Source of the DNA: a virus
Virus record (IMG/VR): IMGVR_UViG_3300030102_003071
Span: 1 to 23,359 of that record
DNA: 23,359 nucleotides
Reading direction: 5' to 3' (one strand)
In this document: one piece after another, positions 1,308-17,989 of the stretch
How the letters are laid out: every line of letters begins with the position of its first letter
Position numbering within the stretch: position 1 is the stretch's first letter
Program-made: the position numbers and the translations under genes
Notes under the pieces: model-generated
Databases searched by the model: none
Told to the model about the DNA's origin: nothing
What the model saw: only the letters and a program-made list of their open reading frames with translations

Positions 1308-1439
1308 GTACTTTCTGCAAATTAATTAAAATAATTGTTCGGGTTATGGTTTTACATCCGGCAAAATCTAGCCAAAATTTTTCTTTTTTTCTAAGAAAAT
1401 GAACGCGTATATACAGGAAGAAGTAGTATATGTAGTATA

Positions 1440-1475
1440 TATATAAAAATAGGGCACCGAGTTTCCCCGATGCCC
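1440..1475 (-). terminator. Rho-independent terminator after the 67-aa gene
   Basis: Read leftward, GGGCATCG and CGGTGCCC form an 8-position stem with one mismatch around an 8-base loop (1452-1475), followed by TATTTTTATAT. It sits downstream of the 1501-1704 gene and upstream of the 931-1242 promoter, so it separates two leftward units. Confidence 0.65.
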
Positions 1476-1501
1476 GATGCCCGATCAGCCCGATGCCCGA
1501 T
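1465..1501. repeat. Tandem heptamers (C/G)CCCGAT
   Basis: CCCCGAT at 1465-1471 is followed by GCCCGAT at 1472-1478, 1479-1485, 1488-1494 and 1495-1501, in near-perfect tandem between the end of the 67-aa gene and the terminator. The same heptamer recurs twice in the GC-rich block near 1955-1980. Confidence 0.6.
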
Positions 1502-1704
1502 TAGTAGTGCGTCCACCCATATTTATCGAACGCTGATTGAGGCTCTCCATCTTTATTTTGAATAAGAAGCTCTTCCCATCCAGATTGACGTAGACCATCG
1601 TTACGAACATAACCAACTACCCAACTCTTTGCTTCACTGTAATTATCAGTCTCGTGAAGCATTGCTGATCCAGATGTGTCAGCATATCCTAAAACTTGAT
1701 ACAT
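1501..1704 (-). CDS. Hypothetical 67-aa protein
   Basis: ATG at 1704 is preceded by AAGGAG and lies about 40 bases downstream of a strong promoter (1748-1776); a terminator follows, so this is a complete single-gene unit. The protein is soluble and begins MYQVLGYADTSG. It contains a Trp-rich middle and ends WTHY. I do not recognise a family. The short size and own promoter are typical of early phage proteins that act on the host, but nothing in the sequence proves this. Confidence 0.65.
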   Translation of the reverse strand: MYQVLGYADTSGSAMLHETDNYSEAKSWVVGYVRNDGLRQSGWEELLIQNKDGEPQSAFDKYGWTHY

Positions 1705-1747
1705 TTGTCTTTCTCCTTTTTTGTTTTCCTTCTCTTTATATATACTA

Positions 1748-1776
1748 CTTGTAGCATACTAAAAAACAACTGTCAA
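1748..1776 (-). promoter_or_regulatory. Promoter, alphaproteobacterial type, for the 67-aa gene
   Basis: On the minus strand TTGACA (1771-1776, perfect consensus) is followed after 17 bases by TACAAG (1748-1753), preceded by an extended TGC. The overall pattern TTGAC-N-GCTACAAG is shared with promoters at 4373-4401 and 7101-7129 and resembles the Caulobacter housekeeping consensus. The transcript leader carries GGAAAACAAAAAA ahead of the ribosome site. Confidence 0.7.
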
Positions 1777-1785
1777 CACAAAAAA

Positions 1786-1809
1786 TAAAAAAAAGTAAAA
1801 AAATTTGCA
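1786..1809 (+). repeat. 24-bp exact direct repeat, copy 1
   Basis: An A-rich 24-mer (A8, GT, A7, TTTGCA core) is identical to 2946-2969, same orientation, 1160 bp apart. The two copies flank the GC-rich block and the small terminase gene. Confidence 0.75.
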
Positions 1810-1810
1810 C

Positions 1811-2110
1811 CTGGCAATTGCCGGGAGATGTGCCCGGGAGCGCGAACAATTGTTCGGGTTATTTTACCGGGAGCGAAGATCCGGGCACGGGGCTTCCGGG
1901 TAACGGTTTAGTAACGAACAATTATTCGGGTTATTATCCCCGGCGAAGTTTCCGGCCCGATCTCCCCGGTCGCCCGATTAACCCGAACAATTCCTCGGGT
2001 TGTTTCCCGGTCCGGCGTTGTGCCCCGGTAAGCCCCGGTTTTTTTCTTTCCGATGGTGGATTCCCCGCCAGAAAACCCGAACAAGTCTTCACGCCCGACC
2101 CCCCGCAAAG
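1811..2110. repeat. GC-rich non-coding block with CCGG clusters and three spaced palindromic repeats
   Basis: This stretch between the 67-aa gene promoter and the terminase stop is far more GC-rich than its surroundings and holds about 12 CCGG sites in 300 bp. Three copies of a 21-bp unit, CGAACAATT-NNN-TCGGGTT plus RTT, start at 1843, 1915 and 1984 (spacing 72 and 69 bp). The first contains the 14-bp palindrome CGAACAATTGTTCG; the third forms a 7-bp stem AACCCGA/TCGGGTT (1980-1986, 1995-2001). CCGGGAGCG occurs twice. A related unit lies at 4324-4344. The block could be a terminase recognition (pac-like) site, an origin, or a mobile palindromic repeat; I cannot decide. Confidence 0.6.
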
Positions 2111-2118
2111 CGCAGAGG

Positions 2119-2643
2119 TCAACCTGCGGCTTGTTTGTTATCGCAAGTTACTGTGGCTTGTTCGGGTTCTGTGGTGCTTTCTGCGGGTGTTACGTCAATC
2201 ATTCTTGACTGCGCCCGCTCAATAAAATGATTTAGCTGCTCAACGATTTTATCACGATCCATGCTATCAACGTTCTGGTAAGTTACATGTTTTTGATCGA
2301 CCATTACGCCTGACGCTTTTAATCTGGTTTCTTCGGCTTTTATTGCTGCTGAATAGTTTCCTTCGCTCAACGCTCTATCTCTAATTATTTGCAGATCTCT
2401 GATGCTCTTGGCTATTGTTACGCCGTACTTGGCTTGTAGTTCGTTTCTCATTTCCTCCATACGTTCCCGCACAACTGGGTTATTCAGTAGCTGTACGGCT
2501 CTCACGTTCGGGTTAGCATATCCTGCGGCTCTTGCTGCTGCTGTTTGTGTCATGTCTCCATTTATGTAATTGTCTAAAAACTTTTGCTGCTGAGGTTGTA
2601 ACCTGCGCCCACCTTTTTCAATCTGCTCACCGACTTGAACCAT
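2119..2643 (-). CDS. terS: Terminase small subunit (Terminase_2 family)
   Basis: A 174-aa protein whose N-terminal half reads as the small-terminase DNA-binding domain: LQPQQQKFLDNYINGDMT at 15-32, then TAAARAAGYANPNVRAVQLL with NPVVRERM, the usual HTH and following helix. The middle (about 70-115) is helical and probably oligomerises; the C-terminal tail is acidic, Thr/Glu-rich. Small terminases bind the packaging site and load the large-subunit motor. ATG 2643 is preceded by TTTAGGTAG. It has its own promoter (2676-2704) in the divergent region. Oddly, no large terminase follows: the next leftward genes are small proteins and the amidoligase, and a GC-rich repeat block abuts its 3' end. Confidence 0.82.
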   Translation of the reverse strand: MVQVGEQIEKGGRRLQPQQQKFLDNYINGDMTQTAAARAAGYANPNVRAVQLLNNPVVRERMEEMRNELQAKYGVTIAKSIRDLQIIRDRALSEGNYSAAIKAEETRLKASGVMVDQKHVTYQNVDSMDRDKIVEQLNHFIERAQSRMIDVTPAESTTEPEQATVTCDNKQAAG

Positions 2644-2675
2644 TTTAACTACCTAAACAATTTTGCACTATTATA

Positions 2676-2704
2676 AATATCGTATTTTTCCTGCTGTTCG
2701 TCAA
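2676..2704 (-). promoter_or_regulatory. Promoter for the small terminase gene
   Basis: Minus strand TTGACG (2699-2704), 17 bases, GATATT (2676-2681), about 30 bases before the ATG. A TATAAT also lies at 2670-2675 but has no well-spaced -35. The -35 overlaps one of the repeated TTGACG elements of this region. Confidence 0.5.
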
Positions 2705-2945
2705 GCGTGATTTGTCCGATAAAATAGCACAACGGCAACATCAAAAACATCAAGGGGGGTATTAATTATATACCCCCTGTAAGGGGGTTAACGCTGTTGA
2801 CGTTTTTTAACCTATTGATTTTATTGATAAATCTACGTCAAAAGGCATTTTTGACGCTGTTGACGTTTTTAACTAAGTTGTTGTTTTTATTATATATTTT
2901 ACGTTACATCAACTACGTCAAATTTTGACGTTATATATATTGACG
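2699..2945. repeat. TTGACGT repeat cluster in the divergent intergenic region
   Basis: TTGACGT occurs on the plus strand at 2797, 2860, 2925 and 2940 and on the minus strand at 2835-2841 and 2915-2921; TTGACGC is at 2851 and a minus TTGACGA at 2698-2704. ACGTCAA-ATT-TTGACGT (2915-2931) is a perfect spaced palindrome. GCTGTTGACGTTTTT is repeated directly at about 2793 and 2856. Such clusters are typical of operators or of origin iterons. The region contains no convincing gene. Confidence 0.65.
2754..2787. other. Alternative G/C-tract hairpins
   Basis: GGGGGTAT (2755-2762) can pair with ATACCCCC (2770-2777) over a 7-base loop. The same C-tract (2773-2777) can instead pair with GGGGG (2783-2787). 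The two stems are mutually exclusive, as in switch-like structures or protein-binding palindromes. There is no T-run, so it is not a classical terminator. Confidence 0.5.
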
Positions 2946-2969
2946 TAAAAAAAAGTAAAAAAATTTGCA
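2946..2969 (+). repeat. 24-bp exact direct repeat, copy 2
   Basis: Identical to 1786-1809, about 78 bp upstream of the first rightward gene. A shorter, imperfect inverse match lies in the T-run of the RNA terminator near 4514-4530. Confidence 0.75.
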
Positions 2970-3683: not shown

Positions 3684-4112
3684 ATGTTTTATATGGCTTA
3701 TGGAATGAATACAAACCGCGCTGCGATGGCTTCACGTTGTCCAAACGCAAAACCGTTAGGCGGCTTTTATCTGCCTGACACACGTTTAATCTTTCGTGGT
3801 GTTGCTGACATTCGCAAAGATATTGACTGTATTTTACCAGTTGTCTTGTGGGAAATTACACAGCATTGCTTAAACAGTCTCGACCAATTGGAAGGTTATC
3901 CAAGACTTTATAACCGATACAAGATCAACGGTGATTGGATTATCTACGACATGAATGGCGACAAAAACAGTCTAGGTGCGCCAAGTGACTTTTATTATGA
4001 TATGATTGCGCAAGGCTACAAAGATTTTGGCCTTGATGATTACTGGTTACGTGCTGCACAAGAAGACGCTTCTTATTTTGCACAGTCACAAAAGGACACG
4101 GTCAATGCGTAG
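3684..4112 (+). CDS. Gamma-glutamylcyclotransferase-like (GGCT/AIG2 fold) protein
   Basis: A 142-aa protein with the family hallmarks: YMAYGMNTN at residues 3-11 (the YGS/TN loop that binds the gamma-glutamyl moiety), LIFRGVADI at 35-43, PVVLWEIT at 52-59, and LDQLEGYPRLYNRY at 66-79, where Glu70 corresponds to the catalytic acid. Family enzymes release 5-oxoproline from gamma-glutamyl amines or cleave gamma-glutamyl-lysine isopeptides. Length is usual for the fold. The ribosome site is GAAGGGAAG. The stop overlaps the start of a 42-aa membrane peptide by 8 bp. With an amidoligase encoded on the other side of the divergent region, the natural reading is an enzyme that undoes or trims the amide product; this pairing is inference, the fold call is good. 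Confidence 0.82.
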   Translation: MFYMAYGMNTNRAAMASRCPNAKPLGGFYLPDTRLIFRGVADIRKDIDCILPVVLWEITQHCLNSLDQLEGYPRLYNRYKINGDWIIYDMNGDKNSLGAPSDFYYDMIAQGYKDFGLDDYWLRAAQEDASYFAQSQKDTVNA

Positions 4113-4292: not shown

Positions 4293-4372
4293 GTGCCCGT
4301 TGTTTTGCTGCGGGATTATAACCCGAACAATACTTCGGTTTATTTACGCTGCAGTTTTTTTTCTTTTTTTTG

Positions 4373-4401: not shown

Positions 4402-4407
4402 TTCCAT

Positions 4408-4865: not shown

Positions 4866-5809
4866 TGTCAGTTTTAGATAAGAGAAAAGAGAACTTTGGT
4901 TGGGTTCCCGAAAAGCATACTTTCAAGGTTGATCTTATTAATTCTGTTAACATGGTAATGCGTAATTATAGTCAAATTACGTCTAACCCGAACGCAGATA
5001 TTACATACGATCAACGCACAAACATGCGCAGAATTGTGCATGAGTGCAGAACCGCAGACTTATATCATTTAGACCACCAATTTGATGATATGCTAGATGA
5101 TTACTGGTTGCAGTACGAAAGCTTAGAAATTAAAGATGTTCGGCTTTCTGCATTTACAAAGTTACCTAGCCCGTTGTGTGCGATTATGATTAATTACTTG
5201 CAGGTGTATTCATCCGACACAATGGAAGATCCGAGCGGTTGGTCAAACAAAGAACTAAACAACCCGTTAATGTTTATGTGTCAGCAATTTGACCATGATA
5301 ACGTTGTAGAGGTTCGAGGCTTTGGCCCGTTAGGTGATCCGTTGGTTTTAGGCGGCTATCACCCTAGCTACGGCATGGTGTTCCCCGATGGCTTTGATGA
5401 TTGGGAAGATCCGAAGAAAGCAGCGCACCTTGAAATGATGGTTATGATTGCAGGTTCGTTCGAGATTATTAACCACCCAAGGTTCGTGTTATCTGAACCG
5501 TCAGGGCCGCGTCAGCAGCGCAGGGCAATGATGCGAGAACACAATATCCCCGTTGATGCTTGGCACAAGATCAGTTGGGATGTTTCCGAGCCAGTAATTT
5601 CTATTGATCCTACGGAGCGCAAAAGAGCGCGTATGCCGTTGCACTACAATAGAGGGCACTTCAAGAAAGCGGAGCCACACTGGGAGAATATCGTGCAGTG
5701 GAAAGATGGAACATGGAAGAAGTGGGTTGATGGCTACTGGGCAGGACACCCCGCATATGGAATTAAAAAGGGTTATCACGCCCCAAAACTTAGAAAGGGA
5801 AAGCTATGA
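4865..5809 (+). CDS. Hypothetical protein, 314 aa
   Basis: The start at ATG 4865 is chosen because it overlaps the preceding stop (TAATG) and follows GAGGAG; an in-frame ATG at 4802 lies inside the previous gene. The N-terminal part is helical and acidic; the C-terminal part is basic, with RQQRRAMMREH (about 216-226) and a Trp/His-rich tail (HYNRGHF, then WKDGTWKKWVDGYW). A tail with an RGHF-type motif recurs, as far as I recall, in uncharacterised phage proteins, but I cannot name a family. The tail looks like a binding module. It ends in an ATGA overlap with the next gene. Confidence 0.75.
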   Translation: MSVLDKRKENFGWVPEKHTFKVDLINSVNMVMRNYSQITSNPNADITYDQRTNMRRIVHECRTADLYHLDHQFDDMLDDYWLQYESLEIKDVRLSAFTKLPSPLCAIMINYLQVYSSDTMEDPSGWSNKELNNPLMFMCQQFDHDNVVEVRGFGPLGDPLVLGGYHPSYGMVFPDGFDDWEDPKKAAHLEMMVMIAGSFEIINHPRFVLSEPSGPRQQRRAMMREHNIPVDAWHKISWDVSEPVISIDPTERKRARMPLHYNRGHFKKAEPHWENIVQWKDGTWKKWVDGYWAGHPAYGIKKGYHAPKLRKGKL

Positions 5810-6099
5810 GTGGTGATGGAAGAGTAGATATTTGGTACGTTGTAGAAAGGCTTGAAGGAATTAAAACGCAACGCGATGTAGATGAGTTTATTGCAGAACT
5901 AAGAAATGTTCGGGTTGACTTTGATGAGAACGTTGCGCGGGTTCCAGATTACGATGTTTATTCTGCGCTTGATGATGTTAAGCGGGATTACATTTCTAGA
6001 GCGATGGCTACAGCAGGGTCATATACCAAAGCGGCTAAACTGTTAGGACTGAAAAACCGACAAACATTAACAAATTGGGTAAAAGGATTGGAGAAGTAA
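5806..6099 (+). CDS. Fis-type helix-turn-helix protein, 97 aa
   Basis: The start overlaps the previous stop by 4 bases (ATGA). The C-terminal 40 residues read as a Fis/NtrC-type HTH: ISRAMATAGSYTKAAKLLGL, then RQTLTNWVKGLEK. The N-terminal 55 residues are acidic and helical and may dimerise. It is probably a DNA-binding regulator or nucleoid-type protein acting on phage or host promoters. It contains one GTTCGGGTT copy, read as Val-Arg-Val. Confidence 0.75.
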   Translation: MSGDGRVDIWYVVERLEGIKTQRDVDEFIAELRNVRVDFDENVARVPDYDVYSALDDVKRDYISRAMATAGSYTKAAKLLGLKNRQTLTNWVKGLEK

Positions 6100-7100: not shown

Positions 7101-7129
7101 CTTGTAGCATGTAGTGGTATACTAGTCAA
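7101..7129 (-). promoter_or_regulatory. Internal promoter, alphaproteobacterial type
   Basis: Minus strand TTGACT (7124-7129), 17 bases, TACAAG (7101-7106), with extended TGC. It overlaps the last codons of the primase-helicase gene and drives the three small genes down to 6381. Confidence 0.65.
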
Positions 7130-9305
7130 GTGCTTCTTCATCATTACTTAACACGCCACCAACAACGCCCAACCATTTCCTCGGTCCGTTTCTTGTTCGT
7201 TTAAATCCATCAACTCGACCTTCGTTCTGTAGCTTTGTAACTGCGTTCTTGATTGTTGTCTCGCCAAGACCAGAAAGATTACCTGCATTGATGTCATCAA
7301 CTGGCGCAGATTGTATTTGTGCATAAATACCATCAACTGCACCGCCTTTTGTAACTGGGATTCCTCTGTCTTCTCTATCCCGAATAAATGCAAATACATA
7401 TTCCAAACGATTTCGCTGAACTGCTGACGCACCAACGTTTGCCAAATCAACGCTTTTATCCTCAAGCAAACCCGTGTTCGGGTTACGGATAAAATGTCTG
7501 ATGTCCCTTTTCGCAGGACCGTTCGACTTAACAACTGCGCCATCAAATACAGCATTCCGAACAAATGGTAGGTTTAAGTCTTTGCATCTCGTTCTGGCTG
7601 TTTTTTCCTCAACTTGCCAAACAGCAAATGCTGACCTGACCCCATCAACAATAGCTGACGTACCCCGAATAAAGTTTCTTGCTTGTTCTGGTGTCGTGAT
7701 TGGGTCGTTTTCTTTTACTTTAGCCATGTGGTGATTAACAATAACTGTCGCCCCTGTTTCTGTAGCCATCTGTGCAAGAAAACCCATGAACGCTGCACCC
7801 GCCGCAGGATCTGCATTTACATCTGCGTGTACAAATGATGCCATTGGATCAATAACGATAAGAGCAAGATCATCAATCTCTTTCATCTCTCTGTAAATTC
7901 TGTCGAATGTCTGGTCGATTAGATAAGAACTGTCTTGTTTCAACATAATTGGAAACACACCACCCTCATTTGGTAAGGGCACAACGATTAGTTTATGCTC
8001 ATAACCCGAACGCTTGTTCATAGGATCTAGTCTGCTGACCCTTCGATGTAATTCATCTCTGTCATCTTCTGCTGATAAAATTACTGCTGACCCGTGGGTT
8101 GCAACCAAACCACCGAAAGAACTTTGCATACCTTCGCCCGATGCAACCTTCATTGCCAAATCTAACGTCATCATTCCTTTACCGCTATCTCCCGATGCGG
8201 CAAAGACAACTGGAACACCTAGAGGTATTGTATCTCCGATTAGAAATTTTTGCTCTGGTGCCGATCCTACAAATTGGTTTTCTACTAATAAGTGCGGATC
8301 ACTAAGCGATAATGTTTTCTTAACTTCGTGCGTAGGATTGTTTAGGAACTTTGCTATGTCTGTCCCGTCTTCTACTGCATCTGCTGCGTCCCACTTATCA
8401 GGCTTACCAAAAGGCGGTGTAAGCATAGTAACGGACTTAACACCTGCGTCTTGCGCTAACTCCTGAACCATCTTCGCATGCTTTTTACCTGCGTTGTCAT
8501 TATCAGGCCATATGATTAATTCTTTGCCTTTGAACGGTGAAAAATCGTATTTGCCTTTTGATTTTGCAGAAAGCATTCCTGCACCACCAATAGTGCAAGT
8601 TGCGGTATATCCTAATCTTGTTAATGCATCTGCGCATTTTTCACCTTCAACAAACACAATTCTTTCTGAATCTTGCAACTGAGGAAGGTTGTATAAAGGT
8701 CGAATTTTTTCGCCAAGAGATGGAAACTGTCTAAATTCTTTTTTAGGTTTACCATCACTACCGCGAATAATCTCTCCTGTGTTATCTCTGTCTAAATACT
8801 TTCTGACTGTAAAAAGTATTTCTCCTAACTCTGAGAGATATAAATATTCTGAATCGTGTGGCGTATTTATGTCAATACGAACTTTTTGTTTGCTTTCTTC
8901 TTGCTGCTGATCCGGGGAATCTTGAGAAATGTTCGGCTTAATAGGGTTTTCTACCGGGGCACGTTTCTCCTGTTGAATGTAGTCTGAAAAGTGATCAACG
9001 ACTTCTGGTAATTTCCACCCATATCTATGCATCAATATTTTTGTGATGCCGCCGACACCTTCTCCTGTGGCAAAATCCATTCCTTGCATAAAGTTAGGGC
9101 TAGATGGATCAATATTAATCCGCAGAGATTCACCTGCCTCTCCTTCTAAAGAGCCAAGATAAAAATCATTCCGAACAATTCTGCCATTTGGATACGCTGA
9201 TTTTAAAGAATCAATTTGAACATGATGTGGAACATTATCAGTTATTTCTTTTACAAAATCTCTTTTTGTACCATATCTAGTATTGCTTACTACCTTAAAT
9301 ACCAT
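7122..9305 (-). CDS. TOPRIM primase-like and RecA-fold helicase fusion protein
   Basis: A 727-aa replication protein. Residues 1-110 form an N-terminal region with a CHC2-type primase tail signature (DFATGEGVGGITKIL) but no zinc cysteines. A TOPRIM domain covers about 212-300 with VEGEK (219-223) and WPDNDNAGKK (266-275). A RepA/AAA_25-type ATPase follows, with Walker A GDSGKGM (372-378), Walker B LIVIDP (482-487) and VNHH (523-526). A winged helix probably lies at about 670-715. It likely unwinds DNA and supports primer synthesis at the fork; without a visible archaeo-eukaryotic or DnaG catalytic core, priming activity is uncertain. ATG 9305 follows GGAGCAACATA. Confidence 0.85.
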   Translation of the reverse strand: MVFKVVSNTRYGTKRDFVKEITDNVPHHVQIDSLKSAYPNGRIVRNDFYLGSLEGEAGESLRINIDPSSPNFMQGMDFATGEGVGGITKILMHRYGWKLPEVVDHFSDYIQQEKRAPVENPIKPNISQDSPDQQQEESKQKVRIDINTPHDSEYLYLSELGEILFTVRKYLDRDNTGEIIRGSDGKPKKEFRQFPSLGEKIRPLYNLPQLQDSERIVFVEGEKCADALTRLGYTATCTIGGAGMLSAKSKGKYDFSPFKGKELIIWPDNDNAGKKHAKMVQELAQDAGVKSVTMLTPPFGKPDKWDAADAVEDGTDIAKFLNNPTHEVKKTLSLSDPHLLVENQFVGSAPEQKFLIGDTIPLGVPVVFAASGDSGKGMMTLDLAMKVASGEGMQSSFGGLVATHGSAVILSAEDDRDELHRRVSRLDPMNKRSGYEHKLIVVPLPNEGGVFPIMLKQDSSYLIDQTFDRIYREMKEIDDLALIVIDPMASFVHADVNADPAAGAAFMGFLAQMATETGATVIVNHHMAKVKENDPITTPEQARNFIRGTSAIVDGVRSAFAVWQVEEKTARTRCKDLNLPFVRNAVFDGAVVKSNGPAKRDIRHFIRNPNTGLLEDKSVDLANVGASAVQRNRLEYVFAFIRDREDRGIPVTKGGAVDGIYAQIQSAPVDDINAGNLSGLGETTIKNAVTKLQNEGRVDGFKRTRNGPRKWLGVVGGVLSNDEEALD

Positions 9306-9349
9306 TATGTTGCTCCTATATACTTCCCTTGTATATTTATACTGTTTAT

Positions 9350-9389
9350 AATGAGCGGATTATGACCAAAAAAATCCGCTCATTTTTTT
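9350..9389 (+). terminator. Terminator-like hairpin oriented against the genes around it
   Basis: AATGAGCGGAT (9350-9360) and ATCCGCTCATT (9374-9384) pair perfectly over a 13-base loop. The T-run (9383-9389) lies on the plus strand, so it would stop rightward transcription. Read leftward, no T-run follows. It fills the 82-bp gap between the nuclease and the primase-helicase. Confidence 0.7.
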
Positions 9390-10161
9390 ATTTCCAACAC
9401 CCTTCACGAAACTCACAAAACTTACATAAATAATAATCTCTGCTCGTTGCTATGCGTGGTAGAATGTCACCTGCTTTTGATGCGGTCAAGATATTTACCG
9501 CTTTATCACTTGCAGCTTGCGCTCTGTCTTTGTCAAACGGAATCAACTCGTAATAAATCTCTGATGTATTTTTGTTCACAACTGTAAACAAACAAGGGTT
9601 TTCCGTTAGATCCATATAGGCTTGATAAAGTGCAACTTGCGTAGCATATGTGGGATTTGCCTTTGCCACCCCCATGCGTTGAAACCCTTTGAATTTAGAG
9701 TCATTAGCTGACTTGCATTCCCACAATGCAGGATAACCCATATCAACGGGGCCATCACAGACAACACCATCAATGTGTCCCTTGATTTCATCATCTGCAA
9801 TAGAAAAACCAAACTGTTCACCCATCTTGTCTTCTGTGCGCAAATCAAATCCTGCGTCCCTTAACCACTTGGCTACATAATCCTCTATATTGTGACCGAA
9901 CTCGAATATGCGTAGGGTCTTTGCGCTAAATTCAGAACCTTCGTCCTGTGGAAAATTCATGTACCTGTATTGAATTTTTCTACCGCATTCGTCACCTATG
10001 CTAGATGCCCCTAAGTACTTGCGCTTCTCTCGTTTGGCCTGTTGTTTTTTTATTCCTTCGTCTACTGCTCTACCTATCGCGTCTGCAATTGGATCAGAAC
10101 GGGATACTTGTAGGTGGGAAAGAACCTGTTGACTTAAAGTATTTGTCTTCGAGGTTTCCAA
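9388..10161 (-). CDS. PD-(D/E)XK nuclease of RecB/Cas4 type with Fe-S cysteines
   Basis: A 257-aa protein. The nuclease core reads GHIDGV (Asp131), LWECKSA (Glu148, Lys150) and TQVALYQ (Gln175, Tyr179), the order of motifs in RecB-family/Cas4 nucleases. Cys59 (GDECGRK) and a C-terminal CKFC...C set (Cys246, Cys249, Cys255) give the four cysteines of the iron-sulfur cluster found in Cas4 and AddB. It likely processes DNA ends in recombination with the nearby Sak4-like ATPase and DUF669 protein. No cas1/cas2 is near, so a CRISPR role is not supported. The start is TTG 10161, chosen for GAGGAG exactly 7 bases upstream. Confidence 0.85.
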   Translation of the reverse strand: METSKTNTLSQQVLSHLQVSRSDPIADAIGRAVDEGIKKQQAKREKRKYLGASSIGDECGRKIQYRYMNFPQDEGSEFSAKTLRIFEFGHNIEDYVAKWLRDAGFDLRTEDKMGEQFGFSIADDEIKGHIDGVVCDGPVDMGYPALWECKSANDSKFKGFQRMGVAKANPTYATQVALYQAYMDLTENPCLFTVVNKNTSEIYYELIPFDKDRAQAASDKAVNILTASKAGDILPRIATSRDYYLCKFCEFREGCWK

Positions 10162-10312
10162 TGTCTATCTCCTCAGATATTTTTTCTGCTTCCTGTAGTG
10201 CAAAAATTAAAACGTGAACTTGATCTTCTGACAAATCAGAAAACTTAGTTTCCCAACCAAACTTGCCCAATATAAATGCCAACTCATCTATTGGCTTCGA
10301 TGCCTGTGTCAA
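10094..10312 (-). CDS. Hypothetical protein, 72 aa, TTG start
   Basis: TTG at 10312 overlaps the preceding TGA (TTGA) with AGGA seven bases upstream, a coupled start. The product is acidic and helical: LAFILGKFGWETKFSDLSED and a long EAEKISEEIDIGNLED helix. Its last 68 bases overlap the nuclease gene in another frame. No family recognised. Confidence 0.6.
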   Translation of the reverse strand: MTQASKPIDELAFILGKFGWETKFSDLSEDQVHVLIFALQEAEKISEEIDIGNLEDKYFKSTGSFPPTSIPF

Positions 10313-10614
10313 TGTATTGTCCTCTCTCCTTCTAAGATTAAATCAATTAAACCTTCTAAATTTTCGTGGTTTTTATTTTTAAAATCTACAATGATAGTGT
10401 CTTTTGCACCTAAAACTGCAGTCGCTAACCCGAACAAAACTTCGTCTTTTGACGTAGCTATCTCGTCTTCTATCATCTCACTAATTTTTTCTTTTATGTA
10501 TCCAACGCTCTTTCCTTCATCACAAAAGCAAATGTAATCATATTCTTCTGTATATGTAGAAAATCCATCGTCTTCTATTTTTGCATATACAATGTTCACT
10601 TCAAATCTCGCCAT
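10309..10614 (-). CDS. Hypothetical acidic protein, 101 aa
   Basis: ATG at 10614 with a GGAG ten bases upstream. It begins with a beta strand (FEVNIVYAKIEDDG), has a Tyr/Cys-rich segment (YTEEYDYICFCDEG), and continues helical. There is no recognisable catalytic motif. It is flanked on both sides by overlapping genes, as part of a coupled run from the helicase to the nuclease. It carries one AACCCGAAC copy. Confidence 0.65.
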   Translation of the reverse strand: MARFEVNIVYAKIEDDGFSTYTEEYDYICFCDEGKSVGYIKEKISEMIEDEIATSKDEVLFGLATAVLGAKDTIIVDFKNKNHENLEGLIDLILEGERTIH

Positions 10615-10774
10615 TTTTAGAAGACTCCTGATTATCGTTATGACTTAACCATAACGCCAAATCAGAAAGAAGATACTTAAAATCTGATGTTGGTATCTTG
10701 GCTACTAACTCGCCATTATACCAAACCTTCAAACAATCATCGTAAACTGCCCATCTTGTTTTTGGATCTTTCAT
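10601..10774 (-). CDS. Small protein, 57 aa, coupled to the helicase
   Basis: This gene starts at ATG 10774, whose ATGA overlaps the helicase stop, with AGGA eight bases upstream, and ends at TGA 10601-10603, overlapping the next start by 14 bases. It begins MKDPKTRWAVYDDCLKVWYN and has a compact Trp/Tyr-rich core with a polar tail. The tight coupling argues that it is real and may act with the helicase. No family recognised. Confidence 0.65.
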   Translation of the reverse strand: MKDPKTRWAVYDDCLKVWYNGELVAKIPTSDFKYLLSDLALWLSHNDNQESSKNGEI

Positions 10775-12456
10775 AAATATTTTCCTACTGCTGTATCAAT
10801 GTCTCTTTTGTTCCATAGATAATTAAGCATACCATTAGCCTTGTATCTGTTCCAAGAGCCATCAAACGGTCCTACTTCGATTCCAAACTTTGCAAGGCTT
10901 TGCTTTTGTTTGTCTGTCGGATGTGCGTTTAACCAACGTTTTTGTTTGTTTGCTGCATCTGTTTGCTCAATCTCTCTTAAAAAATCATCGGCTGCTGCCA
11001 TTGCTTGAACAGACTTACCAACTGACAAAACTTTCACTCTGTCGTATGGTGGGAAACCACCGCTTTTTCTTCCAAACGCAACACACAAATCTGAATCTGG
11101 CAAACTTGCAACTCCAACAAAACCTTCAAATCCCAAAGCAACTTTCAAGATATTATCGCCAAACAAATCAATCCATCTAAACGGAGACATTTTTAACAAA
11201 TCAAACTCGGTCATGTTGATTGATGTAAGTTGTTCTTTTTCGTCCTTTTCTGCAGATTCAAAAATGTGTTCACAAAACGGGCAAACCTTTACACCCATAG
11301 GAACGTAAGCATCACAACTTGGACATTCCTTCATAGGTGCTTCGCCAGTTTTTTCCTTATCGTCTAGGTCAACACTTTCATCTAATGAACCGTGAGTAAG
11401 AACACTGGTCCCAAAGTCTAAAACAATGCAATCTGTTTTAACCCTGTCTGGAAATTCTTCTGGATCAATCGTGCGCAATCCACGACCAATCATTTGAACC
11501 ATTGTGCCCTTCTGTGAGCATGGTCTAGTTAAAACCACACAAGATACTGGTGGCGCGTCAAAGCCCTCTGTAAGAACCGCTACGTTAACTAGAACTTGTG
11601 TATCCCCATGCACTAAGTCATGCAGCGTTTCTTCTCTAAAATTCTTTTCTGTCTCGCCTGTAACGTATTCTGCTTTTACGTCAAAATCTTTGAACGTTTT
11701 GCATAGTGCCTCAGCATGTTTTACTGTCGAGCAAAACACAACTGTTTTTCTATCACCTGCTTTTTCTTTCCAATTTTTTACCACCTCTTCATTAATGACT
11801 TCACTGTTCATAATCTCTTCGACTTGATCCATGTCGAACTCACTGCCTCTCTTAGAGACATTTCCCAAACGATCATTAACACCTAGATCAATTACAAATG
11901 TTTTTGGCGGCACAAGGTAGCCTTGCTTTATTAACGCTGCAATCTCAATCTGGTGAGATACGTTATTAAAAATATTTCGTAAGCCCTTACCATCTCCACG
12001 GTTAGGGGTTGCGGTAAAACCAACAATCTCTGCATTTGGATTGTCTTCTTTTACTGCATCAATAACCCGAACATACGTGTCTGCTGCAGCGTGATGGCTC
12101 TCATCAACTACAACCATATCAAACGCAGGTCGTTCATCTAAATTTCTCTGACGCGAAATAGTCTGGATCATGGAAAAGATTGCATCTCCTCTCCAATTCT
12201 TTTCGCTCCCGTTCACAATACTTGTAGTAATGTTCGGGTTAACCTTTGTGAATTTTGTTTTGTTTTGGTCAACCAATTCATCTCTGTGTTGGATAACTAA
12301 AACTTTTTTGCCGTTCATAAACCTTTTGCCAATCAAAGCAGAAAGCATGATTGTTTTTCCTGCACCTGTGGGCGCAACGACAATAGTATTTTTGTGTCGA
12401 TCTAACGCTTTACATGCATCATCAACCGCCACCTCTTGATAGGGACGCAATAACAT
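10771..12456 (-). CDS. SF2 DEAD/DEAH-box helicase with zinc ribbon
   Basis: A 561-aa helicase of the type III restriction-subunit/phage (UvsW-like) kind. Motif I APTGAGKT (28-35), motif II DESH (118-121), motif III TATP (148-151), motif V region VLTEGFDAP (294-302), motif VI QMIGRGLR (321-328). After the motor, four cysteines (378, 381, 392, 395: CPSC...CPFC) form a zinc ribbon, followed by a C-terminal domain of about 160 residues. It probably remodels replication or recombination forks. ATG 12456 has AGGAG six bases upstream. Confidence 0.92.
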   Translation of the reverse strand: MLLRPYQEVAVDDACKALDRHKNTIVVAPTGAGKTIMLSALIGKRFMNGKKVLVIQHRDELVDQNKTKFTKVNPNITTSIVNGSEKNWRGDAIFSMIQTISRQRNLDERPAFDMVVVDESHHAAADTYVRVIDAVKEDNPNAEIVGFTATPNRGDGKGLRNIFNNVSHQIEIAALIKQGYLVPPKTFVIDLGVNDRLGNVSKRGSEFDMDQVEEIMNSEVINEEVVKNWKEKAGDRKTVVFCSTVKHAEALCKTFKDFDVKAEYVTGETEKNFREETLHDLVHGDTQVLVNVAVLTEGFDAPPVSCVVLTRPCSQKGTMVQMIGRGLRTIDPEEFPDRVKTDCIVLDFGTSVLTHGSLDESVDLDDKEKTGEAPMKECPSCDAYVPMGVKVCPFCEHIFESAEKDEKEQLTSINMTEFDLLKMSPFRWIDLFGDNILKVALGFEGFVGVASLPDSDLCVAFGRKSGGFPPYDRVKVLSVGKSVQAMAAADDFLREIEQTDAANKQKRWLNAHPTDKQKQSLAKFGIEVGPFDGSWNRYKANGMLNYLWNKRDIDTAVGKYL

Positions 12457-12475
12457 AACAAACTCCTGAAATTGG

Positions 12476-12543
12476 TGAGGGGAATTTGGCCCACCCCCCC
12501 TCAGCAGGTGGTTCTAGCAGGGGTATGTACCTGTGCCGCTAGA
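12476..12543. other. Two hairpins in the spacer between the DUF669 gene and the helicase
   Basis: TGAGGGG (12476-12482) pairs with CCCCTCA (12497-12503), and TCTAGC (12513-12518) pairs with GCTAGA (12538-12543) with a shorter inner stem. The 89-bp spacer contains a C7 run and no ORF. It is the only sizeable gap inside an otherwise overlapping gene run and may be an mRNA processing or regulatory structure. Confidence 0.5.
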
Positions 12544-12545
12544 CT

Positions 12546-13169
12546 TTATTTTTGTGCCCAACTTGGCACCGCGCCATTATTTTGCACGGGCTGAGTTTGT
12601 TGTGTCTGTGCGCCATAAGACGCTGACGGATTTTGGTGCGCAGGTGCTTGTCCTGATGCGATAAATCCGTTTTGGTTAGGATGCATGGCTACTGTCAATT
12701 TATTTTGATCAGCGTAACCATTTGTCCCTTTCTTAATACCTACTTTAGCGCAAATTTCCATCGCGTTCAAGTCACCGACACCATTAATGTTTCTGCGCTG
12801 TTGCGCTGCTTCTGACATATCGCTTGGATCAATATTATTTGCGCTTTCAATAATCTGACGCAATGTACTTAATCCAATTTCTTTTGCCATAGAAACACCA
12901 TTGTCGCTAAGTTTATCACCATCGACAAAAATTTTGTCCCAAAACTTACGGCGATCAAATTCACCGCCAATGACAGTAAATTCTAACTCAAGCCATTTGG
13001 CATTTGTGTTCGCTGATTTTTTAAACCAGTTACCTCTACCAAACTCTGGAATTTCAATGTCACCTTGTTTGACAAGAATTACTGCACGACAAACTGTTCC
13101 TGCAGGAATAAGTGAAAATTCTGTTGTTGTTGGTGCATCTCCAACTTGTGCATTATTTAAATTAAGCAT
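12546..13169 (-). CDS. DUF669 family protein, probable ssDNA-associated recombination partner
   Basis: The start is ATG 13169 (alternative ATG 13172): AAGGAG gives correct spacing to the second ATG, and upstream residues of the longer frame lie in the previous gene. The product begins MLNLNNAQV and continues EFSLIPAGTVCRAVI, the conserved opening of DUF669; the middle is beta-rich (KWLELEFTVIGGEFDRRKFW). The last 45 residues are Gln/Asn/Pro-rich and end PSWAQK, like a flexible SSB-type tail. DUF669 genes are characteristically next to Sak4-like ATPases in phages, as here. ssDNA binding is the usual assumption, not proven from this sequence. Confidence 0.8.
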   Translation of the reverse strand: MLNLNNAQVGDAPTTTEFSLIPAGTVCRAVILVKQGDIEIPEFGRGNWFKKSANTNAKWLELEFTVIGGEFDRRKFWDKIFVDGDKLSDNGVSMAKEIGLSTLRQIIESANNIDPSDMSEAAQQRRNINGVGDLNAMEICAKVGIKKGTNGYADQNKLTVAMHPNQNGFIASGQAPAHQNPSASYGAQTQQTQPVQNNGAVPSWAQK

Positions 13170-14019
13170 CATTTGCTCCTTGGTTCTGTGTTGCAGGATC
13201 AATAAATTGCAACTTATTATCTTTTGGTTTGTTCGACATTTTGTTGAACAACTTTCCTAAATGCGGCTCTTCTAACATATCAAGCCTACCTGAACGGTCT
13301 TTTGCGGGGAAACCCCACTCGTTTAACGACCCACAAACGAATGCACGATATGGTCCGTTGTCACCTGATAAAACTGCCATTGTAATTACTTCGTCTACAA
13401 TTCCCGGCAATTCACGGCCTGTCTTACTGCCCTCAATTTGCAGCGCATAATTCTTACGCCCGTAATCATCTGTTGTTTCATCCAAGATGCCAACAAAAAC
13501 TACGTTCTTATCACGAATATGCTGTAAGTGTGTTAGCCAAGCCAACATTTCTCGACCATGCATTCCATATGCTGCGCGAGTATCAAGTTTGCCTGATCTT
13601 TCTGATCGTGACTCTGGTTGCTGTAAACACCATGAGAAACAAATACGACCTGCTACTGTAATAGAGTCAACAAAGATAGTATCGTACTTTGCGATCATTT
13701 CATGTGGATCACCATATGTCTGACACACATAATCGTAATGTGCCTGACTAAATGGTTGATCCTCAGAAAGTGACGGATTTGGCCCACCTAAAAAGCAAGC
13801 AAAGTCTCTACAATCTGCCCATGTTAAGGGCCGAATAACATCAATAGGATGTCCTTCGATTGCAGAATCACCTGCCTCTAGATCCATGAACAAAGTCTTG
13901 TCACCTTCTAAAGTCAAAGCAAGTGTGGTTTTCCCTACACCGCTTGGACCGCAGATAACGACTTTATGCCCACGTTTCTCGGCAAGTCGCTGATCTGCAG
14001 TAATAATGGATAATCCCAT
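13162..14019 (-). CDS. Sak4-like RecA-fold ATPase (AAA_24), recombination
   Basis: A 285-aa ATPase with Walker A GPSGVGKT (24-31), FMDLEAGDS (44-52) and Walker B DTIFVDS (113-119). The order and length match phage Sak4-type single-strand-annealing ATPases, which act with an SSB-like partner; the DUF669 protein encoded immediately downstream fits. ATG 14019 overlaps the previous stop (TAATG) and follows AAGGGAAG. It probably promotes annealing in phage recombination and replication. Confidence 0.85.
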   Translation of the reverse strand: MGLSIITADQRLAEKRGHKVVICGPSGVGKTTLALTLEGDKTLFMDLEAGDSAIEGHPIDVIRPLTWADCRDFACFLGGPNPSLSEDQPFSQAHYDYVCQTYGDPHEMIAKYDTIFVDSITVAGRICFSWCLQQPESRSERSGKLDTRAAYGMHGREMLAWLTHLQHIRDKNVVFVGILDETTDDYGRKNYALQIEGSKTGRELPGIVDEVITMAVLSGDNGPYRAFVCGSLNEWGFPAKDRSGRLDMLEEPHLGKLFNKMSNKPKDNKLQFIDPATQNQGANDA

Positions 14020-14423
14020 TAGTCTTCCCTTTCTACTTCTACTGTAAACCCACCAATCTCAGTAGTGCGGCATTCTTCCAACACTTCTCTGATTGCAGGT
14101 GGGGCTGCGTTGTATTTGCGCTCTTCTACAGCAAACGTTGCTTTTGCGTAGTGACGCGCTTCGTCTGCAGTCATGCTATCTAATGCCTGACGCAGTTTAT
14201 CTTGGTCCCACTTGACCTTCTTTGTAACAGTCGCTTTTAACTTATGACCGTCTGCTACAATGTGCGTGGTACCAAAATCTCTTCCATCCGCACGTAAAGA
14301 ATCACGTGCGAAACCCATGTATAAATCTTGTAATTGTTCTTCAATCAACTTTAGTTCAGACCTCAAGTCAGCCATTTGCTGCTTGATTTCGTCACGTTGA
14401 TTGAACAGTTGTGTACTGTTCAT
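14019..14423 (-). CDS. Coiled-coil protein in the recombination cluster, 134 aa
   Basis: ATG 14423 follows AAAGG. Residues 1-35 are a heptad-rich coiled coil (QRDEIKQQMADLRSELKLIE). The rest includes a small beta-rich part (HKLKATVTKKVKWDQ) and a helix. Proteins of this layout are often encoded beside Sak4/DUF669 pairs, but I cannot name a family. Coupled to the ATPase gene by a one-base overlap. Confidence 0.7.
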   Translation of the reverse strand: MNSTQLFNQRDEIKQQMADLRSELKLIEEQLQDLYMGFARDSLRADGRDFGTTHIVADGHKLKATVTKKVKWDQDKLRQALDSMTADEARHYAKATFAVEERKYNAAPPAIREVLEECRTTEIGGFTVEVERED

Positions 14424-14450
14424 AGTTCATACCTTTCGTCTAGAACTCTA

Positions 14451-14479
14451 AACATGGGGCAAAAACTTTTACGTGTCAA
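14451..14479 (-). promoter_or_regulatory. Possible promoter of the recombination cluster
   Basis: Minus strand TTGACA (14474-14479, perfect) is followed after 17 bases by a poor -10, CATGTT (14451-14456), about 28 bases before ATG 14423. The -35 is strong; the -10 is weak, so an activator is possible. Confidence 0.35.
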
Positions 14480-14486
14480 CTACTTT

Positions 14487-14861
14487 CTAGGATTTTTTTT
14501 TAGAAAGATATATTTCTATGTTGTGAACAGCTTTCATTAATTTATTTTTTAGTTTAAATTCAGGGGTTTCTACACCCTTTGCATCTTCAACTATATGTTC
14601 CCAAGAACCGTCTGCTAGTTCCTTATCATATTGAAAGTCTGCAATGTATGTACAAATTTTTTGCGCATTTACAGTTATTATAAACTTTGGCTGCAACTCA
14701 AGATTGCGCACTCTGTCTGCTTTTTCTAATGACTTTAAATACAAATACCTTTGCGACTCCCATTTGGAGTCAAACTTAATACCATCGACAACAGTTTTTT
14801 TATTGCCGTACTTGCTTCTTGACCTTCTGCGTATAGGACTGTATATTGTTTTTGGTAACAT
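14487..14861 (-). CDS. DUF1064 family nuclease (PD-(D/E)XK type)
   Basis: The conserved core starts SKYGNKKTVVDGIKFDSKWE, then LELQPKF, TYIADFQYD and VEDAKG (Asp75 and Glu92/Lys95 of the ATG 14861 product), the signature of DUF1064, a phage family with a restriction-endonuclease-like fold. The start is uncertain: ATG 14861 gives 124 aa but lacks a ribosome site; GTG 14924 would add 21 residues overlapping the opposite-strand gene. It probably cuts or resolves DNA intermediates. Its 5' end abuts the divergent ribbon-helix-helix gene. Confidence 0.78.
   Translation of the reverse strand: MLPKTIYSPIRRRSRSKYGNKKTVVDGIKFDSKWESQRYLYLKSLEKADRVRNLELQPKFIITVNAQKICTYIADFQYDKELADGSWEHIVEDAKGVETPEFKLKNKLMKAVHNIEIYLSKKKS
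14819..14847 (+). promoter_or_regulatory. Sigma-70 promoter for the ribbon-helix-helix gene
   Basis: TTGACC (14819-14824), 17 bases, TATATT (14842-14847): five of six matches at each hexamer with ideal spacing. A transcript starting near 14854 would have a 24-base leader with AGGAG. It lies within the opposite-strand nuclease gene. Confidence 0.6.
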
Positions 14862-14877
14862 TCTAGGAGATATAGTA

Positions 14878-15105
14878 GTGCCAAGGCGAGTTATATACAA
14901 GTCAATTAGTGTAAATGAAGACACTTATCGTAAGATAGTTGAGATTGCGCAAAACGAACGCAGAAAAATTGCTCAACAATTAGCTCTTATGATAGATGAA
15001 GAGCATAGAAAAATGGTAACTGGTGTTGAGCCACAACCTTTGAAACCGCAAATTTATGCTGCGCATTCAAATTCTGGACTAAGCTCAGTAGTTATTGACG
15101 AGTAA
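14878..15105 (+). CDS. Ribbon-helix-helix (Arc/CopG-type) DNA-binding protein, 75 aa
   Basis: GTG 14878 is the start: AGGAG lies eight bases upstream and upstream residues of the longer frame are antisense to the nuclease. The N-terminal 45 residues read as an RHH domain: a strand YKSISVN, helix DTYRKIVEIAQNERR, then helix QQLALMIDEEHRKM. The tail (Pro/Ser-rich) is probably flexible. It is the only rightward gene between 6.4 and 23.4 kb and sits between DNA-metabolism and virion modules, so a role as repressor of one or both is likely. Its last 14 bases overlap the end of the 965-aa gene convergently. Confidence 0.75.
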   Translation: MPRRVIYKSISVNEDTYRKIVEIAQNERRKIAQQLALMIDEEHRKMVTGVEPQPLKPQIYAAHSNSGLSSVVIDE

Positions 15106-17989
15106 GAATATCCTGATTTCCTAAACCACCTAGCAAAGCCAAGGCATCACCTGTGTTTGCCTTAGCCCTTTGACGTACAGAATTTTGTTTTTGCATGTAT
15201 GGTGGTAACATTTCGCTGTAAGGAACCAACTGTCCACTTTTTACTTCAGGAACAGGAACACCGGGTAACACAGACTTTTGTTCGGGTTGTGCCGGGGCAC
15301 GAACTGTTGGAGTTACTGCGGGTCTTTTTTGCTGCTGTACATTTGATACTAATGAAGAAACAGTTTTAGTAGCTTCTTGCGCTGCTTCTTGCGTTGCTTG
15401 TAACGGTGTTTGTCTCATTGCAGATGCAAAAGCATCAGCTAGTAATTGACCAAAAACTTGCGCTTTTGTTTTTTGAGATGCGCCTTTAGTCATCGCTTCG
15501 TACTGTTTTGTAATAGATTTGTATGCAGGTGCTGAAGACAACAATCTACCAAATACACCTAAACGTGCAATTTTACCTAAGTTTTCTAATGGACTTGCTG
15601 CAATGTTTGCTGCAACAAGATCGCCGCCCTCTGCTGCTTTTGAGTTAAACACCATAATACGACCAAACTTATCCATATCTTTAGCCATCTCATCGCCAAA
15701 AACCGTTGTAAGTTTTCCTGTCTTGTATTCGTTTTGAAGACGTTGACCAAACTGTTTAAATAATTTGGTGTCTGTTAAAAAGGAATCTCCAAAATCTCCA
15801 ATGATGTTGTCCACATAATATGCTCTAATTTTATTTATATCATCAGGAGATTCAAAATATTTAATTAGTTTTGCAACATCAGTATCTTTAGTTGTTCCAG
15901 AAGCAATAACTTCTGCTGCTGATTCAACTGTTATTGAACCATCTTGCAACTGTTTAAATGCTCTGCTTTTGTCTAAGGCAGATTTTTCATCAACTACAGT
16001 TTTCAAATTTCTTAATAAGTTAACTGCTGATTCGTCTGCACCTCTTGCAAGAACATCATCAATCATCGTGTCTGTAACATTTGATAAATTTATTGCAGAC
16101 ATTTGTTCGGCTAATTTATTTATCTGAGCCAACTTTTGTTCGCCAAACAATTCTTTGCTTGTTGTTCCAAGCCTTTCTAAACTGTCTCTAAACTTTGTTG
16201 TGCTAAACTTTCCTGACGGACCTTCTGTAAAAGATTCTTTAAATGCATTTCGCATCCATTCTCCCGCAAGCCTTTCACGGACTGTTTCGTATTTATCATC
16301 TCCAACAGCTTTTTTTATGGCTGTTAACTGATCTGGATCATCAGGTTTTATAACGCTTTTCATTATACCTGCGTATTTAGGCGTTCTACCGCCTTTAACA
16401 TCTGATGCTAATTGTCTAACACCTAATTTGCTATTTAGGTTTTCAAATTGTTTTATGCCTTTTTTAAAGGCTTCTCTTGCGGGAACAATTTGTTTAGACG
16501 CAGCCGTGTACAACTCTCTTTGTTCGGGAGTTAATCCTGACAAAGATTTTCTGTTTAATGCTTTCTTGACGCTTTTCTCTGCAAGCATATCATCAAGCCT
16601 ACCTAAAAACTTTTTCTTAACGTCTGCTACGTTTGACGAATCAAAATTTTGTAGCCATGTGTCGTTTAAATTTTTTCTTGCTCTATATATTTGAGCAAAA
16701 GAAGCATTATCTGGCATTGATATAATGTCTTGTAACGCACTTTTTGCAATTGCTTGGTTGCCTGTGCTAACACCTACAAACTGACCTAATCTTTCTTTTG
16801 CATCTTCTTTTATTGCTTTTACATTAAATGCAGCAATGTCACCCCCTGCATCATCCATAAGTTTATTTATTGAACTAAATTGAACTAGCATATCATCATC
16901 GAAAGCTTTGTATGCTTCTCGAACTATGTTGTATAAGTCTTTATTTATAGCTGCGTCTTTAGTTGTAGCTGCTCCTAAAGATTCATTAACTTGTTTTAAG
17001 TTTCGAACTAAGTCTTCGGTAATTCTTTTCTGCTCATCTAAAACAACTCTATTGCCAGTTTTTGCAGCTTGTGTAAGGGCATCTGCTGCCTCTGCAGGAT
17101 TAGCTGCACCATAATCTGATCTAAATTTTGCCAATTTAGCCATAATTGCATCGTGATTATCTCGTAATCTTTTAGAAGTTTTTATGACTTTTTCACTCAT
17201 AGCCTGTTGTCTTGAAACTATGGGATTTGCGCCAACTTGACTAAGGGTGGGAGTAATCCCTTCTTCTAAAGATTCTCCTGCTATTTTTAATTGATCAGGA
17301 GTTAAATCACTACCAGTTTTACCTAAAACTTTACCGAACAACTTACCTACAACACCGAAAACACCTTCACCTGCTGCGGCTATCAATGCGTCTTTACCTG
17401 CTGCTTTACCAACTTCACCGAGCGTTTCTGTCTGTAAACCTTGAAGTTTTTCTTGACCTTCCTCAAGAAGCTTTGCGCCGCCTGTACCTGCAGCCGCTCC
17501 AATCATTGCGCCAAGAATAGGAATAGGTATTGCAGCTTGACCTGCTAAAGCACCTGCAACACCACCTGTTATTTCTCTGCCAAGGCTAGACAGGTCTGCA
17601 AAGTCTGCGCCTGTAAAACCACGTTCATCAATTATAACGTTTTTGTCTGTATCTAAACCTAGCTTTTTTGCGCCCTCTGGCGTCACCGCTAGGTTTCCAC
17701 GCATATCTCTTAAAAAATCTGTTTCAAGAAGACCCATAGACATCATCGCAAGATCTTCTTCTTCTTTATTTTCTGCTCTACTTAATTTGCGCCGAAGTTC
17801 TTTATTTTGTATTCCGGTTGATCTATCGAATAATTGTTCGTCTTTTTTTCTTTCAGCAGATGCTTTTCTTTGTGGTGCTTGGTTGGCTACAATTCTTTGT
17901 ATTCTCATTTGTTCTACAGGAGTAGGTTTGTCACCTGCTATTTTAAACTGCAGAACACCATCGCTTGTGTTAACTTGAACAGTTCCCAT
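15092..17989 (-). CDS. Large virion protein, 965 aa (internal/ejected type)
   Basis: The long protein has an N-terminal charged region, a Gly/Ala-rich hydrophobic segment at about 139-174 (ITGGVAGALAGQAAIP, then ILGAMIGAAAG) and an extended helical body. The C-terminal 100 residues are Gln/Pro-rich. Size, hydrophobic segment and position before the lysis genes resemble podovirus internal virion proteins that are ejected into the cell; no lysozyme motif is seen. I cannot exclude a tape-measure-like role. The start is ATG 17989, one base after the upstream stop. Confidence 0.65.
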   Translation of the reverse strand: MGTVQVNTSDGVLQFKIAGDKPTPVEQMRIQRIVANQAPQRKASAERKKDEQLFDRSTGIQNKELRRKLSRAENKEEEDLAMMSMGLLETDFLRDMRGNLAVTPEGAKKLGLDTDKNVIIDERGFTGADFADLSSLGREITGGVAGALAGQAAIPIPILGAMIGAAAGTGGAKLLEEGQEKLQGLQTETLGEVGKAAGKDALIAAAGEGVFGVVGKLFGKVLGKTGSDLTPDQLKIAGESLEEGITPTLSQVGANPIVSRQQAMSEKVIKTSKRLRDNHDAIMAKLAKFRSDYGAANPAEAADALTQAAKTGNRVVLDEQKRITEDLVRNLKQVNESLGAATTKDAAINKDLYNIVREAYKAFDDDMLVQFSSINKLMDDAGGDIAAFNVKAIKEDAKERLGQFVGVSTGNQAIAKSALQDIISMPDNASFAQIYRARKNLNDTWLQNFDSSNVADVKKKFLGRLDDMLAEKSVKKALNRKSLSGLTPEQRELYTAASKQIVPAREAFKKGIKQFENLNSKLGVRQLASDVKGGRTPKYAGIMKSVIKPDDPDQLTAIKKAVGDDKYETVRERLAGEWMRNAFKESFTEGPSGKFSTTKFRDSLERLGTTSKELFGEQKLAQINKLAEQMSAINLSNVTDTMIDDVLARGADESAVNLLRNLKTVVDEKSALDKSRAFKQLQDGSITVESAAEVIASGTTKDTDVAKLIKYFESPDDINKIRAYYVDNIIGDFGDSFLTDTKLFKQFGQRLQNEYKTGKLTTVFGDEMAKDMDKFGRIMVFNSKAAEGGDLVAANIAASPLENLGKIARLGVFGRLLSSAPAYKSITKQYEAMTKGASQKTKAQVFGQLLADAFASAMRQTPLQATQEAAQEATKTVSSLVSNVQQQKRPAVTPTVRAPAQPEQKSVLPGVPVPEVKSGQLVPYSEMLPPYMQKQNSVRQRAKANTGDALALLGGLGNQDILTRQ

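Follow-up and report, generated by a model that had tools for sequence, protein, structure and literature searches.

A dispersed 24-bp dyad tracks a putative DNA-reading amidoligase in a clade of uncultured phages

The viral record IMGVR_UViG_3300030102_003071 carries a short motif, GTTCGGGTT, repeated far more often than chance predicts, and we propose that a phage amidoligase reads it. Our window is this complete IMG/VR record (G000; 23,359 bp), whose low end truncates the amidoligase gene. The motif is a real, selected site, and among relatives it is accompanied by an amidoligase ending in a predicted winged helix. We consider it probable, if only just, that the amidoligase reads the motif through this C-terminal domain, with an array of sites serving as its own operator and half-sites tethering the enzyme on the early half of the genome.

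Neither base composition nor codon usage explains the excess. The original prediction counted 15 exact copies against about 0.1 expected, and both figures hold: eight copies lie on the plus strand and seven on the minus strand, and dinucleotide shuffles contained 0.11 on average (maximum 2; 100 shuffles). Eleven of the 15 extend to GTTCGGGTTA. Ten copies are genic, spread over several genes, three frames and both senses, and the others are intergenic. Synonymous-codon shuffling, which leaves proteins and codon usage unchanged, gave a mean of 0.34 genic copies against these ten (maximum 4; 2000 runs). With one mismatch allowed, the window holds 26 sites where 3.3 are expected. Composition and codon usage are ruled out by these two nulls, and relatives carry the motif as well, in part at orthologous sites.

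The excess of the 9-mer is real, but the 9-mer is only part of the functional unit. Scanning with the terminase small subunit, we obtained 257 relatives and retained 80, and in most of these 80 the top enriched 9-mer is GTTCGGGTT or an overlapping word. Aligned contexts from relatives show GTTCGGGTT to be the stronger half of a dyad of 24 bp, TAACCCGAAC-AATT-GTTCGGGTTA. Of 155 main-cluster sites, 92 have the opposite half (at least 6 of 9 matches) exactly four bases away, compared with 0–3 at any other spacing. The dyad also recurs in relatives chosen by amidoligase alone, and in the window dyads begin at about 1323, 1838, 1910, 1979 and 4319. Across 140 dyads, it is mostly the weaker half that varies, with hardly any compensating changes, a pattern that argues for one strong and one weak protein half-site rather than an RNA stem.

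Sites form a dense array and a sparse scatter, the latter made of half-sites that extend over more than 10 kb of early genes and almost spare the virion genes. About 80 relatives carry an array of 2–6 dyads, ~60–117 bp apart, just downstream of the small terminase gene; in several loci an AT-rich stretch and a sigma70-like promoter follow, then the amidoligase operon, with additional sites closely flanking the amidoligase gene on both sides. Helical phasing of the array is weak (R 0.2 on distinct spacings). When 44 non-redundant loci were aligned on the terminase gene, the highest density was 6.5 per kb, over the 0.5 kb at and past the gene end; density ran at ~0.3–1 sites per kb across 10 kb on the replication-gene side and was zero past ~3.5 kb on the virion side. 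Non-array (upstream) sites comprise 107 genic and 21 intergenic copies, at 0.65 and 0.68 per kb. Scattered sites are unoriented (47 sense, 60 antisense), in line with the predicted lack of Chi-like polarity. Some of their positions are common to relatives and others are not, suggesting that density rather than exact position is under selection. Confinement to the non-structural half, also predicted, describes the window, where 14 of 15 copies precede 12.3 kb and the remaining one lies at 15280. It describes equally G001 (55,591 bp), a relative found through its primase/helicase (57% identity), whose 11 copies all fall within 26.0–33.7 kb, but not the relative G002, whose virion half contains three isolated sites.

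Two gene families track the motif. Unbiased clustering of all open reading frames singled out the families of the amidoligase and of a gamma-glutamyl cyclotransferase: nearly all relatives with the motif have them, and those lacking it have neither. Where a locus extends at least 1.9 kb past the terminase gene, that stretch contains one or more dyads in 47 of 47 amidoligase-positive and 0 of 5 amidoligase-negative loci (Fisher test on related rows, 4e-7). Because these rows share kinship a tree was needed, and it forces three independent, concordant changes of motif and amidoligase on well-supported branches. The loss extends to the scattered sites, as one would expect if their reader had gone: in the 10 kb upstream, density is 0.67 per kb with the cassette and 0.15 per kb without it (Poisson P 1e-5), a quantity that played no part in defining the cassette groups. 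The motif-less group was first spotted by its lack of the motif, a partial circularity from which the reverse test on amidoligase-selected relatives is free; here the motif is present in every case with a few hundred bases of sequence upstream. The partial exception is a clade member in a Rhodobacteraceae metagenome-assembled genome (MAG), in which one contig bears a degenerate dyad upstream of the amidoligase gene and the other contig has exact sites beside replication genes and the cyclotransferase.

Other candidate readers are unchanged across motif loss. Several relatives with near-identical terminase have no motif; the small subunit is 95–100% identical across the loss and 98% identical between L098/L097, which are without the array, and L103, which has it. 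All three motif-less lineages retain terminase. A Fis-like helix-turn-helix (HTH) protein (5806–6099) was rejected as specificity determinant, its copies in motif-less L098 and in L108 being ~99% identical. Because neither protein changes when the motif is lost, both are unlikely readers. The small Fis-type gene is conserved in six of six long genomes compared and duplicated in G001.

The amidoligase joins a predicted ligase fold to a predicted DNA-binding domain. Against the Amidoligase_2 profile (PF12224; cut-off 22 bits), the window protein scores 44.9 bits and its relatives 24.6–78 bits, and E, H, R and Q residues are invariant. An AlphaFold2 model of the L107 protein (predicted local distance difference test, pLDDT, 87) resembles glutamine synthetase (GS; Z 11.5), GmaS (11.2) and YbdK (10.8), predicting a GS-fold carboxylate-amine ligase. 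Its C-terminal unit runs helix-helix-helix-wing. Modelled alone (pLDDT 62), this unit has winged-helix proteins as structural neighbors, the best including the DNA-binding domain of biotin protein ligase/BirA (Z 7.3; 1.7 Å over 60 residues) and DNA-bound DriD. Every complete clade amidoligase ends in such a winged-helix-like domain, whose recognition helix is conserved and mostly SEQRVRAAVSEIR. The domain is the most conserved part of the protein, at 70.9% mean pairwise identity versus 47.6% for the ligase domain. Sequence searches of solved structures with the amidoligase and with its C-terminus found no relative, and for amidoligases of Bacteroidota, Desulfovibrio and cultured phages the match lies mainly in the catalytic portion.

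We propose that the enzyme is addressed to DNA by this domain. The winged helix would recognize the 24-bp dyad, with GTTCGGGTT as the strong half, and the array, lying between the amidoligase operon and the gene for the small terminase subunit, would act as an operator for autoregulation. Single half-sites, at ~0.7 per kb over the early/replication half irrespective of gene, strand or frame, would retain more enzyme on the DNA. Such tethering would concentrate ligase action, or an enzyme-built nucleoprotein, on the early half of the genome; the scattered sites may act in gene control, concentrate the enzyme locally, compact the DNA or set a chemical mark. The linked cyclotransferase probably reverses or limits ligation and, going by the function of its family, its linkage suggests a gamma-glutamyl, removable product.

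Several observations weigh against this proposal. The winged helix matches DUF3489 below the Pfam cut-off (E about 1e-4), its structural Z of ~7 is modest, and the window's own amidoligase is truncated by the contig end. No residue-to-base covariation appears: the consensus stays constant across winged-helix variants, including those with altered recognition-helix residues. The case for sequence-specific binding by the amidoligase is one of co-occurrence. There are just three motif-less lineages, most of whose records are short, so a linked regulator could escape view; members of the clade that encode a separate DUF3489 protein could have that protein as the reader.

That last point leads to the principal alternative, which we regard as rather doubtful: the motif would be the operator or stoperator of another phage DNA-binding protein, for instance an unseen repressor or the DUF3489 protein, that comes and goes with the cassette and has the amidoligase merely as one of the genes it regulates. 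The placement of the array upstream of the amidoligase operon, with sigma70-like promoters following in some loci, would suit a repressor, and Cluster A mycobacteriophages provide a precedent for dispersed repressor sites (PMC9283540). Yet within the 20 kb surveyed the motif is tracked by no further gene family, only part of the clade has the DUF3489 protein, and the scattered sites, mostly genic and free of strand bias, do not resemble stoperators.

Predictions made from the window alone had included roles in protein binding, replication, packaging and modification, but not the dyad, the terminase-side array or the tie to the amidoligase/cyclotransferase cassette. A selected protein-binding signal is now strongly supported, with binding itself suggested by the sequence, and modification stays in play because the motif-linked gene is an amidoligase. 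In one specific form, which we think unlikely, a DNA-addressed ligase acting at GTTCGGGTTA would add an amide-linked group (glutamyl or amine) to phage DNA or to bound proteins, with the cyclotransferase as eraser and the motif marking the early half.

Packaging and replication fare worse, and we give very little credence to either. A pac/cos array with extra sites elsewhere, read by the terminase small subunit, would explain why the densest array adjoins and partly overlaps that subunit's gene, a frequent location for pac. Packaging by terminase is nonetheless largely refuted by the 95–98% identical small subunits of relatives without the motif and by the persistence of terminase in every motif-less lineage. 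Better candidates are the TCGGG-rich repeats beside the gene, which are retained without the motif. An iteron-like replication origin with titrating copies, read by a phage initiator, would fit 2–6 copies spaced by ~60–117 bp ahead of an AT-rich stretch, and a scatter that spans the replication half. Specific support is lacking, as relatives without the motif keep the primase/helicase and the remaining replication module, and the array has no clear helical phasing.

It is more improbable still that a host protein such as a LexA-like repressor binds the motif. The consensus contains an inner dyad, CGAAC-N4-GTTCG, that exactly matches the core of the Gram-positive SOS box (the LexA or Cheo box), but the conserved flanks go beyond this box, with conservation running outward to GGGTTA. 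The probable hosts are alphaproteobacteria, whose LexA box differs, being a GTTC-N7-GTTC direct repeat. Near-identical phages lack any array sites, and the Rhodobacteraceae MAG shows no excess (20 sites versus 19 for a reversed control, one mismatch allowed). Last, an RNA hairpin or attenuator (CCCGAAC-AAUU-GUUCGGG), for which a perfect dyad could supply a 9-bp stem and tetraloop, has next to no chance of being correct and is rejected: it is contradicted by the uncompensated one-half changes among the 140 dyads, genic half-sites cannot fold, and both strands are used.

The amidoligase-motif system would be a bifunctional ligase-regulator with phage-wide dispersed sites, for which BirA offers a close functional analogy. 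BirA, the biotin protein ligase, is a bifunctional ligase-repressor, or trigger enzyme (PMC6978683). Like BirA, the phage protein joins a ligase and a predicted winged helix (from the model and a weak DUF3489 match) in one chain, has a dyad, the putative operator, beside its own operon, and counts BirA-type winged helices among the best structural neighbors of its C-terminal domain. It differs in having a GS-type fold and an Amidoligase_2 match with no biotin-protein-ligase catalytic domain, in carrying the winged helix at the C terminus rather than the N terminus, in the many scattered sites of the phage genome, and in that its DNA binding is predicted.

Dispersed sites in other phages offer further comparisons. 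N15-type dispersed centromere sites (ParB-parS) are inverted repeats found both clustered and scattered in one phage genome, as here, but no ParB-like gene was noticed among the proteins annotated. Stoperators of mycobacteriophage L5 and Cluster A are intergenic, follow the direction of transcription and are read by a dedicated immunity repressor (PMC9283540). They share with our motif a short asymmetric site (its strong half), many dispersed copies and a cluster at the operator; the phage motif differs in being equally dense in genes, unoriented and enzyme-linked, and no immunity repressor gene was identified among the part of the genes that is annotated. Unlike a terminase pac/cos site, the motif vanishes beside a nearly unchanged terminase. 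Bacillus phage 031MP002 and Acutalibacteraceae phage NatCom_11578 likewise encode Amidoligase_2 and gamma-glutamyl cyclotransferase close together; in those pairs database matches cover the catalytic domain only, with no winged-helix fusion seen. The localized single-strand nicks of phage tf, which also has an amidoligase, occur at a different consensus with no gene link (PMC3517423), and we rejected them as a counterpart.

The motif belongs to a clade of uncultured podoviruses, mostly marine, with probably alphaproteobacterial hosts. IMG/VR holds more than 250 relatives by terminase and more than 500 by amidoligase, and a terminase search of cultured phages and bacterial genomes gave zero matches. 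The map of G002 (55,718 bp) resembles that of G001 with record ends placed elsewhere, and together they point to a genome of ~55.6 kb that is probably circular or circularly permuted. By portal protein, the nearest cultured relatives are Pelagibacter phages HTVC023P/HTVC027P and Roseobacter phages CRP-901/902 (~43–50% identity); the 50 kb examined of each of CRP-901 and HTVC023P contain 0 motif copies and no annotated amidoligase. The clade member in the Rhodobacteraceae MAG (L239 and L186, its two contigs) is a weak hint to the host. The replication/recombination module of the window (7122–14924) comprises a primase-helicase, a Cas4-like exonuclease, a helicase and a Sak4-like protein, with Wolbachia WO phages and Acidithiobacillus phage AcaML1 as nearest cultured relatives. 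The genome is a mosaic, with a WO/AcaML1-like replication module and a pelagiphage-like portal (in G001).

Other repeats lie around the terminase small subunit gene. The TCGGG-rich repeats, a candidate pac/cos site, stand directly downstream of it in the window (~2020–2110), L098 and L055. An exact 24-bp repeat, TAAAAAAAAGTAAAAAAATTTGCA, flanks it at 1786–1809 and 2946–2969, and the divergent intergenic region upstream (2780–2950) holds several TTGACGT/ACGTCAA copies; TTACGTCAA is enriched also in L059, L081 and L094 and is a possible second regulatory motif. Short CCCGATGCCCGATGCCCGATC repeats end a 67-aa gene at 1468–1500. Two lineages without the main motif have tight arrays of TGTGATCACA palindromes (~17–22 bp spacing), ~1113–1205 bp beyond the terminase gene in L055 and ~230–260 bp beyond it in L098. 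In the same two loci, GTGATCACA was rejected as a swapped operator (heteroimmune replacement): it forms a local tandem array only and is not dispersed.

Table. Motif sites and associated genes of the window
Feature	Positions	Strand	Context
Dyad, strong right half (core 1337–1345)	1323–1346	+	Intergenic, upstream of DUF3489/amidoligase genes
Array dyad GAGCGCGAACAATTGTTCGGGTTA (core 1852–1860)	1838–1861	+	
Array dyad, core ATTCGGGTT with one mismatch	1910–1933	+	
Array dyad TAACCCGAACAATTCCTCGGGTTG (core 1980–1988)	1979–2002	-	
Array half-site/weak dyad (core 2074–2082)	2073–2096	-	
Half-site	2160–2168	+	3' end of terminase small subunit gene; comparable place in G001 and L015
Half-site	2506–2514	+	Within terminase small subunit gene, codons NPNV
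Dyad TAACCCGAACAATACTTCGGTTTA	4319–4342	-	Intergenic; many relatives have a dyad ~2 kb from the terminase small subunit
Half-site	4985–4993	-	Coding gene
Half-site	5908–5916	+	Fis-like HTH gene
Half-site	7476–7484	+	Primase/helicase gene
Half-site	8003–8011	-	Primase/helicase; context shared with L093, L105, L108, L109
Half-site	10427–10435	-	Small coding gene
Half-site	12064–12072	-	DNA helicase gene
Half-site	12232–12240	+	DNA helicase gene
Half-site	15280–15288	+	3' end of first virion gene
Amidoligase gene (PF12224)	2–928	-	Truncated by contig end; C-terminal winged helix from ~196 towards 2; proposed reader
Separate DUF3489-type winged-helix protein	931–1242	-	103 aa; in part of clade
Terminase small subunit	2119–2643	-	Landmark adjoining array
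Gamma-glutamyl cyclotransferase (GGACT/AIG2-like)	3684–4112	+	Pfam match below cut-off; travels with motif

Pairs of amidoligase and cyclotransferase are common in phages, and we found no established function for them. Nor did we find a paper on an amidoligase with a DNA-binding domain or on this motif, and of the titles and abstracts on amidoligases with an HTH or DNA modification none was about such a system. By this motif one can recognize a large clade of uncultured, mostly marine phages in which one version of this enzyme has a predicted DNA-reading domain and a probable address legible in the genome, which would give a testable handle on its target. If the proposal is true, the amidoligase would join the short list of phage proteins with binding sites dispersed genome-wide.

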